Positions 3,785 to 22,850 of a stretch of DNA of 25,541 nt are shown piece after piece. Within the stretch, counting starts at the first letter, position 1, and the number at the start of each line of letters is the position of its first letter. Origin of the DNA: a virus; the IMG/VR virus record IMGVR_UViG_3300031603_000026, positions 1-25,541 of that record; one strand, 5' to 3'. The notes below the pieces were generated by a model. It saw only the letters and a list, made by a program, of their open reading frames with translations. It was not told the origin of the DNA and did no database searches. The position numbers were made by a program, and so were the translations under genes.

Positions 3785-3813
3785 ATTATACAATATTATT
3801 CTTTTTTTGTCAA
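3785..3813 (-). promoter_or_regulatory. Consensus sigma70 promoter, family member B (dnaE operon)
   Basis: TTGACA (3813-3808), 17-base spacer beginning AAAAAAGAATAAT, TATAAT (3790-3785), minus strand. Transcription should begin at about 3778, just at the AAGGAG of the dnaE TTG start, giving a leader of only about 11 bases. It lies in the divergent gap shared with the plus-strand gene at 3875. Confidence 0.92.
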
Positions 3814-9709: not shown

Positions 9710-9738
9710 ATTATATCATATTATTCTTTTTTTGTCAA
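9710..9738 (-). promoter_or_regulatory. Consensus sigma70 promoter, family member C (gp47-gp46 operon)
   Basis: TTGACA (9738-9733), 17-base spacer beginning AAAAAAGAATAAT, TATAAT (9715-9710), minus strand. Downstream, ATTAAGGAG lies right at the expected transcript start, much as at the dnaE promoter. The last codons of the upstream 90-aa gene (VDKKRII and TGA) are read from the -35 box and spacer. Confidence 0.92.
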
Positions 9739-9988
9739 CTGTATAGAAGGGTGGTTTTTCTTGCATGAACCTTTCACAAAATGGTATGTAATTAAAGTCA
9801 ACTTTTTTATTATTTTTATTCTCTTCATATTCAACAAATATACGAACCTGTCTTTCTAATTCCTTTAGGAGATAGTCTTTATTCCAAGCAGTTGCTTCTT
9901 CAATTATCATATCTGCATATCTCTGGTTATATTGACTTTTATTTTCAAGAAAATAAACAAACTTTTTAACCATAGTATTAAATCTCAT
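9716..9988 (-). CDS. Hypothetical protein (90 aa) ending inside promoter
   Basis: Unrecognised 90-residue, probably helical protein: charged, with many Glu, Lys and Tyr. I choose ATG at 9988 because GGGAG lies six bases upstream; an in-frame TTG four codons earlier has no such site. It overlaps the 3' end of the HNH gene by 11 bases. The final seven residues, VDKKRII, and the stop are encoded by the promoter at 9710-9738, so the promoter either was inserted into the gene's end or evolved with it. No function can be assigned. Confidence 0.7.
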   Translation of the reverse strand: MRFNTMVKKFVYFLENKSQYNQRYADMIIEEATAWNKDYLLKELERQVRIFVEYEENKNNKKVDFNYIPFCERFMQEKPPFYTVDKKRII

Positions 9989-10571
9989 GATGTCTCCCAA
10001 TTATATCATCAACCAAAAGAGTGTCTGGAAGTAAATCATCCAGTTTTTTAGTCTCTACTTCTTCCCAATTTAAAACACTATTTCTCTCGGAATTCCATAA
10101 AGGAGTAAGATTATTTAAACTCCAGCATTTTTTTATATCGTCTTCATTATAAAAATTGTAAACTTTCATAGGAATAATGTGGTGAACATGCCAGTTTTTC
10201 CTACTTAAAAAAAGGTTTCCAAAATTATTCCAATCCATATCATCTTCAAATTTATCTTGTAGATCTTTCATTAAAGTATGAACTCCATAACCAAGTATTC
10301 TCTCTAGCACTTCTCCCCATGTTCTAAATGTTATTCCAAGATTAATTTTTGACAAAACATTCTGTTTTATTCTATAGTTCATATCACTTTCTTTTTTTTC
10401 AATAAAATAAAGTCTATTTCTTTCTTTAATCTTTTCCTTATTACTCTCATAATATTGTTTAGATTTACTTTTTACTTTATCTTTGTTTTCTTGATACCAT
10501 TTTCTTTTATAATCCTTTATCTCTTTTTTATTGAGATCCCTATAATTTTTACTATATTCTTTTCTATCCAT
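9978..10571 (-). CDS. Free-standing HNH homing endonuclease (197 aa)
   Basis: The N-terminal half (about 1-60) is a string of basic helices with a repeated YxxNKxKxK pattern, a DNA-binding arrangement common in phage HNH endonucleases. The catalytic HNH region is WHVHHIIPM (H130, H131), followed by CWSLNNLTPLWNSERN (154-164), which supplies the Asn and the final His-equivalent positions. Such enzymes cut a target gene and spread by repair. GAGGA precedes the ATG at 10571. It sits between the tail-tube gene (opposite strand) and the gp47 operon. No clear promoter of the conserved family is seen upstream. Nicking specificity is unknown. Confidence 0.88.
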   Translation of the reverse strand: MDRKEYSKNYRDLNKKEIKDYKRKWYQENKDKVKSKSKQYYESNKEKIKERNRLYFIEKKESDMNYRIKQNVLSKINLGITFRTWGEVLERILGYGVHTLMKDLQDKFEDDMDWNNFGNLFLSRKNWHVHHIIPMKVYNFYNEDDIKKCWSLNNLTPLWNSERNSVLNWEEVETKKLDDLLPDTLLVDDIIGRHHEI

Positions 10572-10660: not shown

Positions 10661-11200
10661 ATGGCAATATCATTAACAACAAGCAGAAGTTCTAGTTTAG
10701 AAGCTTTAAAGAAAAATAGATTTGTTATGCAATTTACTGCAGTTCCTGGTGGTGGAGAAGCTAGTGACTTAGCTTTTGCAGCTCATACAGCAACTATTCC
10801 ACAAATTACATATAATCCAATTGAATCTCAGAGATTGAATGAGAGATTTTTTACTGCTGGTAAACCAACATGGACTGATCTTTCAGCAACATTTTATGAC
10901 TACATAGCAGGATCTAATTCTTCTGGACAAATCCTTTATGATTGGTCACAGAGCATTTATAATCCTATCACAGGACAAATGTATTTTAAATCACAATACA
11001 GCACATCAGCAACAATCGCTCAATTAGATCCTGCTGGTGGAATTGTTAGATTATGGAACGTTTATTACGTTTGGCCAACATCAGTTGGTTGGGGTGATGC
11101 AATGTCTTATGATGATGATACAATTTCAGAATGTGCAGTGACATTTAAATATGATTATGCTCTAAAAGGAAACGATAAAGATACAAAACCTGCAGTTTAA
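10661..11200 (+). CDS. 19: Tail tube protein, gp19-like
   Basis: A 179-residue protein of the T4 gp19 tail-tube family, which polymerises as stacked hexamers on the baseplate to form the inner tube. Typical features: an N-terminal segment ending RFVMQFTAVP, the ATIPQITYNPIE strand, and LYDWSQSIYNPITGQM, a conserved helix of the family; the C-terminal half is beta-rich (VRLWNVYYVWPTSVGW; ECAVTFKYDYA). Length is close to T4 gp19 (163 aa). AGGAG precedes the ATG. It is a single gene with its own terminator, in a region where both flanking minus-strand genes are homing endonucleases. As a structural gene it should be expressed late. Confidence 0.95.
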   Translation: MAISLTTSRSSSLEALKKNRFVMQFTAVPGGGEASDLAFAAHTATIPQITYNPIESQRLNERFFTAGKPTWTDLSATFYDYIAGSNSSGQILYDWSQSIYNPITGQMYFKSQYSTSATIAQLDPAGGIVRLWNVYYVWPTSVGWGDAMSYDDDTISECAVTFKYDYALKGNDKDTKPAV

Positions 11201-11212
11201 TTAAAACCCTTA

Positions 11213-12676
11213 TTACCCCTTAGAATTATCTAAGGGGTTTTTTAATTCAAACTTAAAATTTCCACAGTCCCATACTCTATCATATCCATTATTAATCATA
11301 TTTTCCCATTCAGTTATTGATGGATTATATTCTTTTAATATTGATTTTAATTTATGTTTTTGAAATTTTACTCTATTTAATCTTTCTATTTTGCTTCTAT
11401 AAAAATAAAAATAACTTTGCTTAGTATCTTCAAGTTTCTTAAAACCATTGTTCTCATAGACTTTACCAGTAAAATATCTTTTATCTGAATAAGTTATTAT
11501 ATCTCCAGAATAATTATTAGTAAAATATTTAAGCAGTTTAGAAAATCCACCAATAACTACTGTATTCTTCTTACTTACAAAACGATGTATTTCCCATTTA
11601 TAATTCTTATTATATCTTGAACTTCCAAAGGTCAATAAAGAAACTAATTCATCGCTATAAAATAATCCAATATTAATTGAACTATTAGATGATCCTTGCA
11701 GGTGATTATTTTCTAAAAAAACGTTTCTATCTTTTTTATTTATTTCTAATATTTTCGTCTTTCTTGCGAATATTTTATCATCAACTATTCCAAGTTTTAT
11801 TCTTATAATTGATTTTACTATTTCTCTTTTATTATCCCATTCATCTTCAAAAATATGTATAAGTTTTATTCCATTATTATTACAAGTTTCAGTTTTATTT
11901 AGGTGATAATCTTTATTTTTTCCATTTAACTCGCTATGCCAATATAAACCATTAAATTCTATTGCAACTTTTTTTTCTGGTATGTATATATCTATTTCTT
12001 TACCGTTAAGTATATTCCTATCATTTTCTATTATATCAAGATGATATATAGATCTTATAAAGTCTATGACTTCATTTTCTTTTATTGATGATGTATTAGG
12101 AACACATACTGGGCATCTAACTTTTTTAGAATGAATATTATCTTCAAATTCTGTATTACATTTTTTGCATTTAAATTTATAATAAATACTTTTATTATCT
12201 ATTCTCATTCCTTTATATTCTTCTAAGAATATAACTTTTTGTTCTTCAACTCTTTTATTTGCAATATTAGAAAATTTATCAAGTCTTGATGAAGTTCTTT
12301 TTTTTAAAACTTCTTTATTTTGCTGAACATATTCGACTCCATATTTTTTAAGATTAGTCTGTTTAGTTTTTTCTTTTATAATATTGTTTTGGGCTGGAGC
12401 TTTTTTACCGTATCTGTTTATATTTGTATTTTCAGTTTTACATTTTCTACATAGAAAGGCTTCATTTTCTATTCTATCTTTTATTCCTCTACGACTTGAA
12501 ACTGTTACGTTTGTACCACACTCTTTACAGTTGAACTCAAGGATACTATTAAAACTATATCCTTTTATAAGCTTTATTTTTTCTATATTAGTATAAGTTT
12601 TTTTATCTTTTATTAATTTCACTATTGAATAACCTTTAGGGATATTTGTTAGGCTACCCAAATAGGGGCCTAACAA
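11213..12676 (-). CDS. Large Vsr-type (PD-(D/E)XK) homing endonuclease, Hef-like (about 470-487 aa)
   Basis: A mobile endonuclease with zinc knuckles CKEC/CRKC and CKKC/CPVC, an intervening DNA-binding repeat (KYGVEYVQQNKEVLKKRTSS), then a nuclease core: EIDIYIPEKKVAIEFNGLYWHSE (split at about residues 230-252), where D, E and the WHS motif resemble the Vsr fold. The C-terminal domain (about 300-480) has EIHRFVSKKNTVVIGGFSKLLKY and ITYSDKRY, common in phage Hef-like endonucleases. The longest frame starts at TTG (12676) within a large hairpin; a GTG at 12622 with AAAGG upstream would give 469 aa and may be the true start. The last seven codons are read from the tail-tube terminator on the opposite strand. 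Confidence 0.88.
   Translation of the reverse strand: MLGPYLGSLTNIPKGYSIVKLIKDKKTYTNIEKIKLIKGYSFNSILEFNCKECGTNVTVSSRRGIKDRIENEAFLCRKCKTENTNINRYGKKAPAQNNIIKEKTKQTNLKKYGVEYVQQNKEVLKKRTSSRLDKFSNIANKRVEEQKVIFLEEYKGMRIDNKSIYYKFKCKKCNTEFEDNIHSKKVRCPVCVPNTSSIKENEVIDFIRSIYHLDIIENDRNILNGKEIDIYIPEKKVAIEFNGLYWHSELNGKNKDYHLNKTETCNNNGIKLIHIFEDEWDNKREIVKSIIRIKLGIVDDKIFARKTKILEINKKDRNVFLENNHLQGSSNSSINIGLFYSDELVSLLTFGSSRYNKNYKWEIHRFVSKKNTVVIGGFSKLLKYFTNNYSGDIITYSDKRYFTGKVYENNGFKKLEDTKQSYFYFYRSKIERLNRVKFQKHKLKSILKEYNPSITEWENMINNGYDRVWDCGNFKFELKNPLDNSKG
11215..11243 (+). terminator. Intrinsic terminator of the tail tube gene
   Basis: Perfect 10-bp stem ACCCCTTAGA (11215-11224) with TCTAAGGGGT (11229-11238), loop ATTA, followed by a T run. 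It begins 14 bases after the gp19 stop. The same bases code the end of the endonuclease gene on the minus strand. Confidence 0.95.
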
Positions 12677-13234: not shown

Positions 13235-13263
13235 ATTATACAACATTATTCTTTTTTTGTCAA
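13235..13263 (-). promoter_or_regulatory. Consensus sigma70 promoter, family member D (hsp20)
   Basis: TTGACA (13263-13258), 17-base spacer beginning AAAAAAGAATAAT, TATAAT (13240-13235), minus strand. It starts three bases after the stop of the 255-aa gene. The expected leader to the hsp20 ATG is about 55 bases, longer than at members A, B, C and F. Confidence 0.92.
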
Positions 13264-17389: not shown

Positions 17390-17707
17390 TTAACTGTAAA
17401 CAGCCCAAACAGATTTCGCAGGAATAATTCCTTTCATTGTAGGGTTAAGCGGATCTGCTACATTTTCAACTTTAAACTGTTGAATATCGTGTTCGTTAAA
17501 AACTATACTATCTCCAACTTCAAATCCACAAGTTTCAAGATCAACATTATTACCAATTGTTTCTACAATTGCTTCATGAACTGGTTGTTTATCTGTTTCT
17601 CCATCAATTAATTCAATACCACCAGAAGTAACTCTTTTCTTCTTTTCAATTTCATCAAATCTAAGTATAATCATTTCACCAATTGCTCTTAATACTTTCT
17701 TTGCCAT
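17390..17707 (-). CDS. 31: GroES/gp31-type co-chaperonin
   Basis: 105-residue Cpn10-fold protein that should form the heptameric lid of host GroEL, replacing GroES as T4 gp31 does for capsid protein folding. The N terminus, MAKKVLRAIGEMIILRFDE, and KKRVTSGGIELIDGET (the mobile-loop region with GGI) match GroES; VGDSIVFNEHDIQQF is the conserved C-terminal barrel segment. T4 gp31 is 111 aa. ATG at 17707 has GAGGAG nearby, inside the end of the upstream endonuclease, with which it overlaps by 19 bases. Its place between recA and uvsW is unlike T4 gene order. Confidence 0.92.
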   Translation of the reverse strand: MAKKVLRAIGEMIILRFDEIEKKKRVTSGGIELIDGETDKQPVHEAIVETIGNNVDLETCGFEVGDSIVFNEHDIQQFKVENVADPLNPTMKGIIPAKSVWAVYS

Positions 17708-18588
17708 TTTATCTCCTCTAATTTTTCTTTTATATCTTCATTATATTTTATTCTTAATAATTTTATTCCATTGTTTTTACAATAAATAGTTTTAATTTCA
17801 TCTCTTTTTCTTACTTTTTTAAACTCTTCTATTCCTCCGAAAAATTTTGTAGGTTTATAATGCTGTTTACCATCATACTCAATACATAAATTATAATCTG
17901 GCAAATAAAAGTCAAAATATAAAAGTCGCAAGTTTTTACACTTAGGAAATGTTTTTTGCTGTTCAAACAAAGTTTCATTTTCTATTAACATTTTCTTTAT
18001 TCGCTGCTCTCCACGACTGCTATTAAAACAGTTTGGACATCCATGACCATTTAAATGGCTATATGGTTTTTGCTCAAACTTCCCATGCTTTCTACAGTTA
18101 ATTATAACTTTTGCCTGTGCATTGTTATAGTCAACCAAACTATAATCATAAGTATTTCCATGAACATCTATAGCATCTTCTATAAACTCTTCTGTAGTTT
18201 TTTTTGAAGTTCCATAACATTTTGGACACCCTCTATTACTTAAATGGTCATTAGGTTTTTGTTCAAATCTCCCATGCTTTCTACAGTTAATTATAACTTT
18301 TGTATGATTATTTTTATAGTCAACTAAATTGTAATCATATTTATTTCCATGAATATTTATAGCATCTTCTATAAATATTTCTGTAGTTTTCTTTTTATTC
18401 CCATAACATTTTGGGCATCTATTTTTCTTTAAATGGTCTTTAGGTCTTTGCTCAAACTCTCCATGTTTACTACAGATAATTTTCACTTTTGTATAATTAT
18501 TCTTATAGTCAACCAAACTATAAGAATAAGTATTTCCATGAATATTTATAGCATCTTCTATAAACTCTTCTGTAGTTTTTCTTGCCAC
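17689..18588 (-). CDS. Homing endonuclease with three zinc-ribbon modules and Vsr-like nuclease (299 aa)
   Basis: Three tandem modules of about 63 residues (4-65, 67-128, 130-190), each TTEEFIEDAINIHGNxYxYS...CxKHG...CPKC; Cys at 39/58/61, 102/121/124 and 165/184/187 with a His beside the first. Such modules are common in phage proteins annotated DUF723 (family name from memory). The C-terminal nuclease has FDFYLPDYNLCIEYDGKQHY (226-243) and NNGIKLLRIKYNED. It begins with GTG sharing a base with the recA stop (TAGTG) and overlaps groES, so it sits in the recA-groES junction without harming either. It is a close paralogue of the gene at 20858-21742. Modules also repeat at DNA level. Confidence 0.88.
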   Translation of the reverse strand: MARKTTEEFIEDAINIHGNTYSYSLVDYKNNYTKVKIICSKHGEFEQRPKDHLKKNRCPKCYGNKKKTTEIFIEDAINIHGNKYDYNLVDYKNNHTKVIINCRKHGRFEQKPNDHLSNRGCPKCYGTSKKTTEEFIEDAIDVHGNTYDYSLVDYNNAQAKVIINCRKHGKFEQKPYSHLNGHGCPNCFNSSRGEQRIKKMLIENETLFEQQKTFPKCKNLRLLYFDFYLPDYNLCIEYDGKQHYKPTKFFGGIEEFKKVRKRDEIKTIYCKNNGIKLLRIKYNEDIKEKLEEIKWQRKY

Positions 18589-20846: not shown

Positions 20847-20875
20847 ATTATATCAGATTATTCTTTTTTTGTCAA
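20847..20875 (-). promoter_or_regulatory. Consensus sigma70 promoter, family member E (gp32-recA operon)
   Basis: TTGACA (20875-20870), 17-base spacer beginning AAAAAAGAATAAT, TATAAT (20852-20847), minus strand. The end of the upstream endonuclease gene (LTKKE and its TAA stop) is read straight from the -35 box and spacer. Confidence 0.92.
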
Positions 20876-21742
20876 GCAATTACTCAACTTACAATTTATA
20901 TCTTCATTATAAGCTATCCTTAACAACTTAATATTATTATCATTACAATATTTATTTTTAATTGCATCATTGAATTGTGTTTTATACAATTGATCAATTC
21001 CACCAAAATACTCAATAGGTTGAAAATGTTGCATCCCATCATATTCAATACAAATATTTCTTTTAGGTAAGTAAAAATCAAACCTTAATTTATTTATTTT
21101 AAGGAAGCTTTTTTCCCTTTCATAATAAAAATTTTTTTCAATTAAAAACTTTTCAATTTTCATTTCTCCTTTACTAATATTACATAGTCTACATCCACTT
21201 CCTCTTAAATGACTTTGTGGAACTTGTAAAAATTCTCCATGAACAGGACAGATGATTTTTATCTTAGTCCTATAGTTTATATATTTAGATAAAGAATAAT
21301 CATATTTATTTCCATGAATTTTAATTGCTCTTTCTATAAATCTTTTAACTGATAATTTATTATTTCCATAACATTTTGAACACTTTTGCCCTAATAAATG
21401 ATTATTAGCCTTTTGCAAAAAACTACCATGAATAGGACAGACTATTTCTACTTTAGTTCGTGAATTAATATAATTTACTTTCGAATAATCATATTCATTT
21501 CCATGCATATTAATCGCATTTAAAATAAAATCTTCTGTTGTCTTTTTATTATTCCCATAACACTTAGAGCACCCTCTTTTCATTAAATGTTTATTAGGCT
21601 TTTGCAAAAAACTACCATGAATAGGACATATTATTTCTATTTTAGTTTGTGAATTAATATAATTAACTTTCGAATAATCATACTTATTTCCATGAATATT
21701 TATTGCGTCAATAATAAATTGTTCAGTAGTTTTTCTTTCCAT
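20858..21742 (-). CDS. Homing endonuclease with three zinc-ribbon modules and Vsr-like nuclease (294 aa), leaderless
   Basis: Same architecture as the 17689-18588 gene: three modules TTEQFIIDAINIHGNKYDYS...CPIHG...CSKC, then a nuclease with FDFYLPKRNICIEYDGMQHF and NDNNIKLLRIAYNED. I set the start at ATG 21742 (MERKTTEQF) because it aligns with MARKTTEEF of the paralogue. A longer frame from ATG 21781 would translate the promoter itself. The ATG lies six bases after TATAAT, so the mRNA should be leaderless. Its stop codon is inside the promoter of the ssDNA-binding gene. It lies between the gp26-type gene and gp32. Confidence 0.88.
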   Translation of the reverse strand: MERKTTEQFIIDAINIHGNKYDYSKVNYINSQTKIEIICPIHGSFLQKPNKHLMKRGCSKCYGNNKKTTEDFILNAINMHGNEYDYSKVNYINSRTKVEIVCPIHGSFLQKANNHLLGQKCSKCYGNNKLSVKRFIERAIKIHGNKYDYSLSKYINYRTKIKIICPVHGEFLQVPQSHLRGSGCRLCNISKGEMKIEKFLIEKNFYYEREKSFLKINKLRFDFYLPKRNICIEYDGMQHFQPIEYFGGIDQLYKTQFNDAIKNKYCNDNNIKLLRIAYNEDINCKLSNCLTKKE

Positions 21743-21748
21743 ATCTTC

Positions 21749-21777
21749 ATTATACAACATTATTCTTTTTTTGTCAA
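21749..21777 (-). promoter_or_regulatory. Consensus sigma70 promoter, family member F (leaderless endonuclease)
   Basis: TTGACA (21777-21772), 17-base spacer beginning AAAAAAGAATAAT, TATAAT (21754-21749), minus strand. It follows four bases after the U tract of a terminator, so stem-loop and early promoter form one unit, like the PeSL elements described in T4 relatives. The start of transcription falls on the endonuclease ATG. Confidence 0.92.
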
Positions 21778-21780
21778 TCA

Positions 21781-21815
21781 TAAAAAATCAACCATATTAT
21801 TTATGGTTGATTTTA
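21781..21815 (-). terminator. Intrinsic terminator after the gp26-type gene and its extension
   Basis: 11-bp stem AATCAACCATA (21786-21796) with TATGGTTGATT (21802-21812), five-base loop; on the minus strand it ends in a six-T run. The stop codon of the +1-frame extension (21799-21797) falls in the loop, which ties that frame to the transcript end. Confidence 0.92.
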
Positions 21816-21970
21816 TCATTTGCTTCTTTCTTGTCTTTATAGTACTGATTTAGTAACATAACAAATACGTTATATTCCTGAAGTGGGATGTCTTTCAAGT
21901 CTGAAAAACTAAAGCCCCACTTAATCAGATAAAAGAAACTTTCTCTTATTCTTATTAAGTTATCTTCATT
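21797..21970 (-). CDS. +1-frame extension of the gp26-type gene (57 codons), probably made by ribosomal frameshift
   Basis: This frame has no ATG, GTG or TTG start near its beginning: upstream it is closed by a TAG 28-30 bases before the gp26 stop. It encodes NEDNLIRIRESFFYLIKWG, then FSFSDLKDIPLQEYNVFVML and LNQYYKDKKEANDKINHK, a well-formed sequence with an IPLxEY pattern reminiscent of tail-assembly chaperone second frames. The upstream gene ends UUC UUU CGG UUU UAA U. A tRNA-Phe slipping from UUU to the next UUU at the stop would read AAU GAA and enter this frame, giving a product of about 350 aa. An unusual ATT start (four codons before the UUU) is the alternative. The overlapping TAATG gives only a four-codon frame. 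Confidence 0.6.
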   Translation of the reverse strand, partial: NEDNLIRIRESFFYLIKWGFSFSDLKDIPLQEYNVFVMLLNQYYKDKKEANDKINHK

Positions 21971-22850
21971 AAAACCGAAAGAAATCCACGCCTATCGGGA
22001 TGGTACCTGAGAAATCACTCTCGCAGTACGGACAAACAACTCCATCAAGTGTATCAACACCTGTTGAAAAATCTGCTTTCTCGTTTAGCTCTGCCCTGTC
22101 CATTCCTATTAAAGATTCATAAAATTCTTCCCAATCTCCCATAGAAACTTCTTCACCATTTGGATCGGTGATTTTAATAGTAGTTACAATTAAATTATCA
22201 ACCATTCTCTGATCTGCATCAGATGTTGATTTTTTTCTCTTTCTGTTTCTGTTATAGATCTCTTCTGAATGTGCAAGTCTTGGTAATACGAATGTTACTT
22301 TATATTTTGACTTAGGAAGTTCAACTACAAAAGGTTCAACAACTTCATCTGGAAGTTCTTCAAAGTTCAATTCATCAATCTTAACTGTATGATCAAACTC
22401 CATTCCGCAAGATGAATTACTACATTTTAGTTTAAATTTATAATCATTACCATATGAGATTCCTCTTAGAAAAAACAGTAAATAATTACTATCATATAAA
22501 AGAATATCTCTTGCTTCAATATCAGAAGCAATACAGTTATCAATTACCATTCTGGTAGCAGCTCCTGACTTTAGAAATCTGCTTGTTGATAAAATTTCTT
22601 CATCCTTAACTGTCATAGGATACATCTGTATCTGACCATTTAGGATATCAACATCATTTGTTACTTGTTTGTATAATCTTCCTTTTGATGGAAGAACTAC
22701 CATTTCAGCTTCTGAAAAGTTGAATTTACCAGATTTTCTGGTTTTCATCACTGAAGCTGGAACATTTGATATTTTAGACATGTCAATTACTGGTGCTTTT
22801 GGAGCATCAGTCTTATTGATAGTCTCTTCTACTTCTTTTTTTGTTGGCAT
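21969..22850 (-). CDS. 26: T4-type baseplate/tail-assembly protein, gp26-like
   Basis: 293-residue protein resembling the T4 gp26-type baseplate family. Evidence: VVLPSKGRLY (51-60), common at the start of these proteins' conserved domain, a helical middle (ILSTSRFLKSGAATRMVIDNC), a zinc-ribbon-like pair CSNSSC (143-148) and CPYC (273-276), and the terminal GVDFFRF. In T4, gp26 is needed for baseplate hub assembly. The N-terminal 40 residues are flexible and charged. ATG at 22850 has GAGAGG; a T4-like late box TATAAATA lies just upstream. The stop UUU UAA U overlaps a +1-frame extension. The family call is from pattern memory, so moderately sure. Confidence 0.78.
   Translation of the reverse strand: MPTKKEVEETINKTDAPKAPVIDMSKISNVPASVMKTRKSGKFNFSEAEMVVLPSKGRLYKQVTNDVDILNGQIQMYPMTVKDEEILSTSRFLKSGAATRMVIDNCIASDIEARDILLYDSNYLLFFLRGISYGNDYKFKLKCSNSSCGMEFDHTVKIDELNFEELPDEVVEPFVVELPKSKYKVTFVLPRLAHSEEIYNRNRKRKKSTSDADQRMVDNLIVTTIKITDPNGEEVSMGDWEEFYESLIGMDRAELNEKADFSTGVDTLDGVVCPYCESDFSGTIPIGVDFFRF

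Follow-up and report, generated by a model that had tools for sequence, protein, structure and literature searches.

A candidate +1 programmed frameshift at UUU_CGG predicted to yield the long form of a T4-type tail assembly chaperone

In phage lambda, one gene located between those for the tail tube and tape measure proteins gives rise to a short product, gpG, and to a rarer long form, gpGT, in which a −1 shift adds a small out-of-frame C domain (Xu, Hendrix and Duda 2004; PMC5009743). A 2016 review describes the G-T shift as conserved in long-tailed phages, T4 being the exception (PMC5009743). T4-like chaperone genes were identified by Vladimirov, Gautam and Davidson (Virology 2022), the title of which favours a mechanism other than frameshifting; a 2025 paper (PMC12846349) refers to that study for −1 signals of the poly-T kind in such genes. 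For +1 shifting, the nearest described cases are bacterial prfB (RF2), with CUU_UGA, and Listeria phage PSA, with CCC_UGA, in both of which a P-site tRNA slips next to a slow A-site codon, together with the tail chaperone of the myovirus HSTV-2 of Halorubrum, which is very likely made by a +1 shift (PMC5009743).

Here, we analysed a stretch of 25,541 bases comprising an IMG/VR virus record (the window), in which a gp26-type gene is followed by an out-of-frame extension. The locus resembles lambda G/GT in having one gene with a predicted short form, a predicted rarer long form and a small out-of-frame C domain and, in phages related to that of the window, in its place between tail tube and tape measure; however, the lambda shift is −1 while that of the window would be +1 at UUU_CGG, and the two are likened by layout rather than by sequence. 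With genes 26 and 51 of T4 it shares the family PF12322, gp51 consisting of a gp26 domain and a 48-residue tail similar to the extension, but T4 uses two genes and no frameshift, whereas the window type would use one gene and a +1 shift. The loci of Atu_ph07 and related jumbo-type phages have the same family, the same Phe-Phe position and a similar C domain, but their shift is −1 on U UUU UUC, unlike the +1 of the window's branch. As in prfB and PSA, a +1 slip of the P-site tRNA would be favoured by a slow A-site codon; in contrast to them, the A-site codon is a sense codon (rare CGG or Trp UGG) without a Shine-Dalgarno (SD) sequence, and, unlike in prfB, the shift would not serve release-factor autoregulation. 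HSTV-2 is an archaeal virus and is likened by description, not by sequence.

The gp26-type open reading frame ends in GAT TTC TTT CGG TTT TAA, with the second Phe codon TTT at 21980-21978, CGG at 21977-21975 and the stop codon at 21971-21969 (minus strand). The features at the junction are as follows.

22850-21969, minus strand: gp26-type gene, 293 aa, predicted short chaperone form (TAC-N); PF12322 T4_baseplate, phrog_150 baseplate hub
21975..21983, minus strand: favoured +1 slip site TTC TTT_CGG, homologous to UUU_UGG, UUU_C and CUU_U of other +1 phages
21969..21974, minus strand: UUU_UAA, slip site of the original prediction and possible minor second site, invariant in the window, five close relatives and the more distant locus L175
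21797..21976, minus strand: extension in the +1 frame, running from GF to NHK and a stop; predicted to be the C domain (TAC-C) of the long chaperone form, based on open frame, Ka/Ks and profile match
21784..21814, minus strand: terminator-like hairpin of 13 bp, the loop of which contains the stop codon of the extension

The gp26-type protein belongs to Pfam family PF12322 (E=4.4e-15; 56.4 bits against a gathering cut-off of 24.5; residues 71-290) and matches the PHROG baseplate hub family phrog_150 with E=1.3e-17. The +1 frame runs open over the gp26 stop, reads (G)FNEDNLIRIRESFFYLIKWGFSFSDLKDIPLQEYNVFVMLLNQYYKDKKEANDKINHK and ends at a stop codon at 21799-21797; the predicted fusion has 350 aa, the extension adding a 57-residue tail to the gp26-type protein. 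From the upstream stop to 20 codons beyond the slip codon, the +1 frame of the window contains no ATG, GTG or TTG; the ATG within TAATG lies in the third frame, which opens for just 4 codons. The −1 frame opens for 4 codons only, and since the extension is in the +1 frame, the locus does not follow the X XXY YYZ heptamer pattern of −1 sites. The original prediction had described a well-formed second frame without a start that ends within a terminator loop, and this description is confirmed, with the frame open to 21799-21797 and the hairpin at 21814-21784. Loci L012, L014 and L015 share this hairpin layout but differ in the sequence of the stem.

Five IMG/VR contigs encode gp26-type proteins that are 81-86% identical to that of the window, and in all five of these close relatives the extension is present in the same +1 frame. 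Across the six sequences (48 aligned codons), the extension frame has a Ka/Ks of 0.106, against 0.98 and 2.3 in the two other frames, while gp26 itself has a Ka/Ks of 0.097 in the same comparison. The extension evolves as a protein in its own frame. L175, with 59% identity, has kept the ...DFFRF-stop ending and a +1 extension with a shared KWGFS core. Near the junction, the extension frame is without ATG, GTG or TTG in four of the six clade members (the window, L014, L015 and L016). The conservation of the frame with synonymous bias that the original prediction had proposed as a check is thus borne out. It had also named a start codon with an SD sequence in relatives, or loss of the frame in close ones, as grounds for rejection, and on these points the relatives do not refute a shift in the window's clade.

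To survey the wider family, loci were gathered by alignment scans of IMG/VR and by tblastn on isolate phages, giving 165 analysable and 142 distinct gp26-type loci; extensions were counted if they had at least 35 codons, and the locus counts reflect sampling rather than abundance. An extension was found in the +1 frame at 78 distinct loci, in the −1 frame at 60 and in neither frame at 4. In the +1 as well as the −1 group, the frame change maps to a conserved Phe-Phe near the C terminus of gp26, the exception being the −1 locus L005, which has its own ATG in place of Phe-Phe. The motif TTTTTTTGGC dominates the +1 group (53/78), and TTTTTTC, the U UUU UUC heptamer, is found in most of the −1 group, including jumbo phage Atu_ph07. 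The +1 layout is present in the isolate genomes SP-15, immuto, Mel-JY01, GXN1 and LIS04. A profile built exclusively from the +1 extensions of other phages matched the extensions of the window's clade with E values of 1e-10 to 2e-15. Three extra hits of a DNA motif scan for clade members lacked a gp26 homologue and were discarded as chance matches.

In a tree of gp26 bodies from which the last 20 residues had been removed, two changes of shift direction suffice for all 124 rows, which supports that direction is a lineage trait; the root of this tree is not fixed and some of its branches are long. Three loci with −1-frame extensions (L096, L098 and L099) group with the +1 branch and may represent a second change of direction or have starts of their own.

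These data bear on two explanations in which the ribosome does not change frame. The T-rich sequence and the use of environmental assemblies could point to a broken gene, or to a sequencing or assembly frameshift, in what was once a single frame; this explanation, to which we give a negligible probability, is refuted by the same +1 layout in 78 distinct loci, in isolates and in five close relatives, and strong purifying selection on gp26 and the extension alike also speaks against it. The frame could also be changed in the mRNA by RNA polymerase slipping on a run of T, and a seven-T run, TTTTTTTGG, is indeed found in 53 of the 78 distinct +1 loci. However, the window has only TTTCTTTCGG, with no run longer than 3 T until past the site, the Flavobacterium phage immuto locus has TTTCTTTGG and further loci have TTCTTTTGG, making polymerase slippage highly improbable.

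A third alternative is that the extension is translated as a separate small protein, from its own start or by re-initiation near the gp26 stop, in agreement with the small hypothetical genes annotated at this place in the records of SP-15, immuto and Mel-JY01 and with an ATG directly after the gp26 stop in L005. We regard it as improbable, as no ATG, GTG or TTG occurs in the relevant stretch of the window, L014, L015 and L016, and 22 of the 78 +1 loci are without any; moreover, conservation starts at the slip codon, and a separate protein would leave the tight conservation of the frame and of the slip site unexplained. We conclude that programmed +1 shifting very probably joins the gp26-type protein to the extension.

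The original prediction, in proposing such a shift of the G/GT kind, is therefore very probably right as far as the conserved and selected frame is concerned; its choice of UUU UAA as the main site is probably wrong. In that model, the same fusion would arise by a slip at the stop codon, as in prfB, and UUU_UAA does have features that would suit it: it does not vary among the window, the five close relatives and L175, its UUUU allows perfect re-pairing, and a stop codon pauses ribosomes. The wider family argues otherwise. Among the 78 distinct +1 loci, the stop of the gp26 frame lies 2-10 codons, usually 4-6, after the Phe-Phe site; it would consequently not be in the A site in most phages, and RF2-like slippage at a stop is not the general mechanism. 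By homology, the shift maps to a point two codons before the stop of the window, and at the position of UUU_UAA a stop is missing from the other +1 phages. Slippage at the stop would yield FFRF-NE instead of FFGF-NE, and the G at this position is kept in most of the family: the match of the extension profile in L015 begins at the G right after FF, and in the joint alignment the GF of the clade (AF in L014) sits under the GL of the family, which fits a slip at UUU_CGG (FF-GF) rather than at UUU_UAA. The +1 codons TTT AAN in part dictate the stop itself, which is not accompanied by an RF2-like SD. UAA followed by U is also a strong termination context, which counts against slippage there. Altogether, a shift mainly at the stop is unlikely, and UUU_UAA could add a little as a minor site.

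The second option of the original prediction, UUU followed by the rare CGG, is now favoured. In 74 of the 78 distinct +1 loci, Phe-Phe (or Phe-Leu) has UUU or CUU as its second codon and U or C as the next base, forming a conserved slippery sequence that lets a GAA-type anticodon of the P-site tRNA pair anew with UUY one base on; LIS04, with UUU_A at the slip position, is an exception. The immuto locus has CUU_UGG, in which the slip codon is that of RF2 and the A site holds a sense codon. A −2 shift was rejected as incompatible with CUU_UGG in immuto and with UUC UUU_Y in the window and other loci. No sense codon of the window is rarer than CGG, which is used once in the 6,484 codons of its open reading frames, as codon 292 of the gp26-type gene. 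CGG occupies the slip position in the window and in four of the five close relatives; L014 has TGC and L175 has CGC, both of which are rare. The overlapping glycine codon constrains the choice of CGG in part; it does not dictate C rather than U as the first base. No downstream RNA structure was consistently conserved in the six sequences (fold z −2.35 to +0.22), and an internal SD sequence was found in only 17 of the 78 distinct +1 loci, so that the slip codon and the rare codon are the only stimulators identified. UUU_CGG is probably the main slip site.

Based on these observations, we suggest that most ribosomes would read gp26 to its stop and produce the short form of 293 aa (TAC-N), while a minority would pause when tRNA-Phe occupies UUU at 21980-21978 and the A site holds the very rare CGG. 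P-site pairing would then move from UUU to UUC, base C at 21977 would be skipped, and reading would continue in the +1 frame to give a long form of 350 aa consisting of the gp26 body and the C domain (TAC-C). Going by lambda G/GT, the short form may be expected to coat the tape measure protein, with the C domain recruiting the tail tube protein. The occurrence, efficiency and exact codon of the shift as well as the chaperone roles are what we infer from sequence and analogy, and the explanation as a whole, a T4-type myophage chaperone pair made by a +1 slip at UUU_CGG, is probable.

A role in tail assembly is suggested by the genomic place of the gene and by its relatives. The gp26-type gene and the extension are flanked by tail tube and tape measure in SP-15, LIS04, Mel-JY01 and immuto; the large gene that follows the extension in Mel-JY01, at the tape measure position, carries no name. 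The public records of SP-15, immuto and Mel-JY01 show the extension region as a small hypothetical gene of its own, and that of LIS04 leaves it unannotated; the coordinates of this region are 2294-2413 in L003, 2330-2440 in L008 (immuto), 2261-2497 in L002 and 2242-2471 in L001. The window has the extension followed by the terminator and an HNH endonuclease gene, with no adjoining tape measure gene and none seen in the 25.5-kb fragment. The tail tube gene of the window (phrog_45; 10661-11200, plus strand) stands alone among minus-strand genes, far from gp26, indicating that the tail genes of this phage are scattered.

In Pfam, both gp26 and gp51 of T4 belong to PF12322, the domain covering residues 1-201 of gp51 and being followed by a further 48 residues. 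Ten aligned gp51 tails matched a combined profile of +1 and −1 extensions with an hhalign probability of 88.6%, and nine of the ten tails scored better than all 200 of their own shuffles, the tenth better than all but one. Against the +1 extensions alone, the hhalign probability was 30.8%, and given this weaker match, homology of the gp51 tail and the extension is likely and not proven. There are two PF12322 copies in T4, 44RR and EC-F2 and one in each of seven complete genomes of the frameshift type, as judged by PF12322 or the family alignment; in the 19-62 kb available for each close relative, which like the window are fragments, no second PF12322 gene scored above the family cut-off.

Structure predictions were also compared. 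The AlphaFold2 model of the extension is helical, with a mean pLDDT of 89, and a fold search of the PDB with the extension gave no significant match. Searching BFVD with the AlphaFold2 model of gp26 retrieved the baseplate hub subunit of SP-15 (E=8.6e-16) and viral baseplate hub and hub-assembly proteins. In the PDB, the HK97 chaperone 2ob9 had the highest probability among the Foldseek matches listed, but this match was not significant (E=2.3, probability 0.16), and a sequence search with the gp26 profile found no significant match. Separately, Pfam DUF6760, of unknown function, was weakly matched by 5 of 45 extensions of the +1 group (best E 7e-4) and in none of 14 control genomes, and it may be the same C domain as the extension. 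Most probably, the product is a G/GT-type tail assembly chaperone in its long form. Read most simply, the family has a single chaperone pair, for which T4-type phages use two genes and for which elsewhere one gene with a frameshift serves.

Two side observations in the window concern a repeated element and an endonuclease-like gene.

1255-1283, 3785-3813, 9710-9738, 13235-13263, 20847-20875 and 21749-21777, minus strand: six copies of a promoter-like module
20858-21781, minus strand: HNH/homing-endonuclease-like gene with tandem KTTExFIxxAINIHGNKYDYSxVxY units

In the module, TTGACAAAAAAAGAATAATNTNNTATAAT, the −35 and −10 boxes are perfect or nearly so and the spacer (AAAAGAATAAT) is conserved, which is unusual for sigma-70 sites. 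Its six copies in the window compare with none in shuffled sequences, and the five relatives have 4-20 copies each, on one strand throughout. The HNH-like gene lies just downstream of the chaperone terminator and has its own consensus promoter. Judged by eye only, open reading frames at 17689-18588 and possibly at 11213-12676 and 9978-10571 (all minus strand) resemble it.

The original prediction had regarded a stop-codon +1 shift in a gp26-type gene as probably new. Frameshifting in T4-like chaperone genes is already known in general, as the −1 poly-T signals cited in PMC12846349 indicate; provisionally, the +1 form may be new, as we found no report of +1 shifting in the gp26/gp51 family in the literature searched, where Vladimirov et al. 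2022 was represented by its title and by citations. We consider the chances about even that a whole T4-type branch shifts +1 at Phe-Phe, beside a −1 branch and the two-gene arrangement of T4, and that the lineage of the window all but purged CGG from its genes and kept it at this one site as a frameshift signal. The site would be a compact one, with apparently a single rare codon as driver and neither SD sequence nor RNA structure. For annotation, the "hypothetical proteins" between gp26 and the tape measure gene in SP-15, immuto and Mel-JY01 become probable chaperone C domains. For the gp26/gp51 family, +1 and −1 solutions apparently occur at a single homologous site, and T4 has a solution with two genes; the family thus allows a clear test of how gene duplication takes the place of a frameshift.
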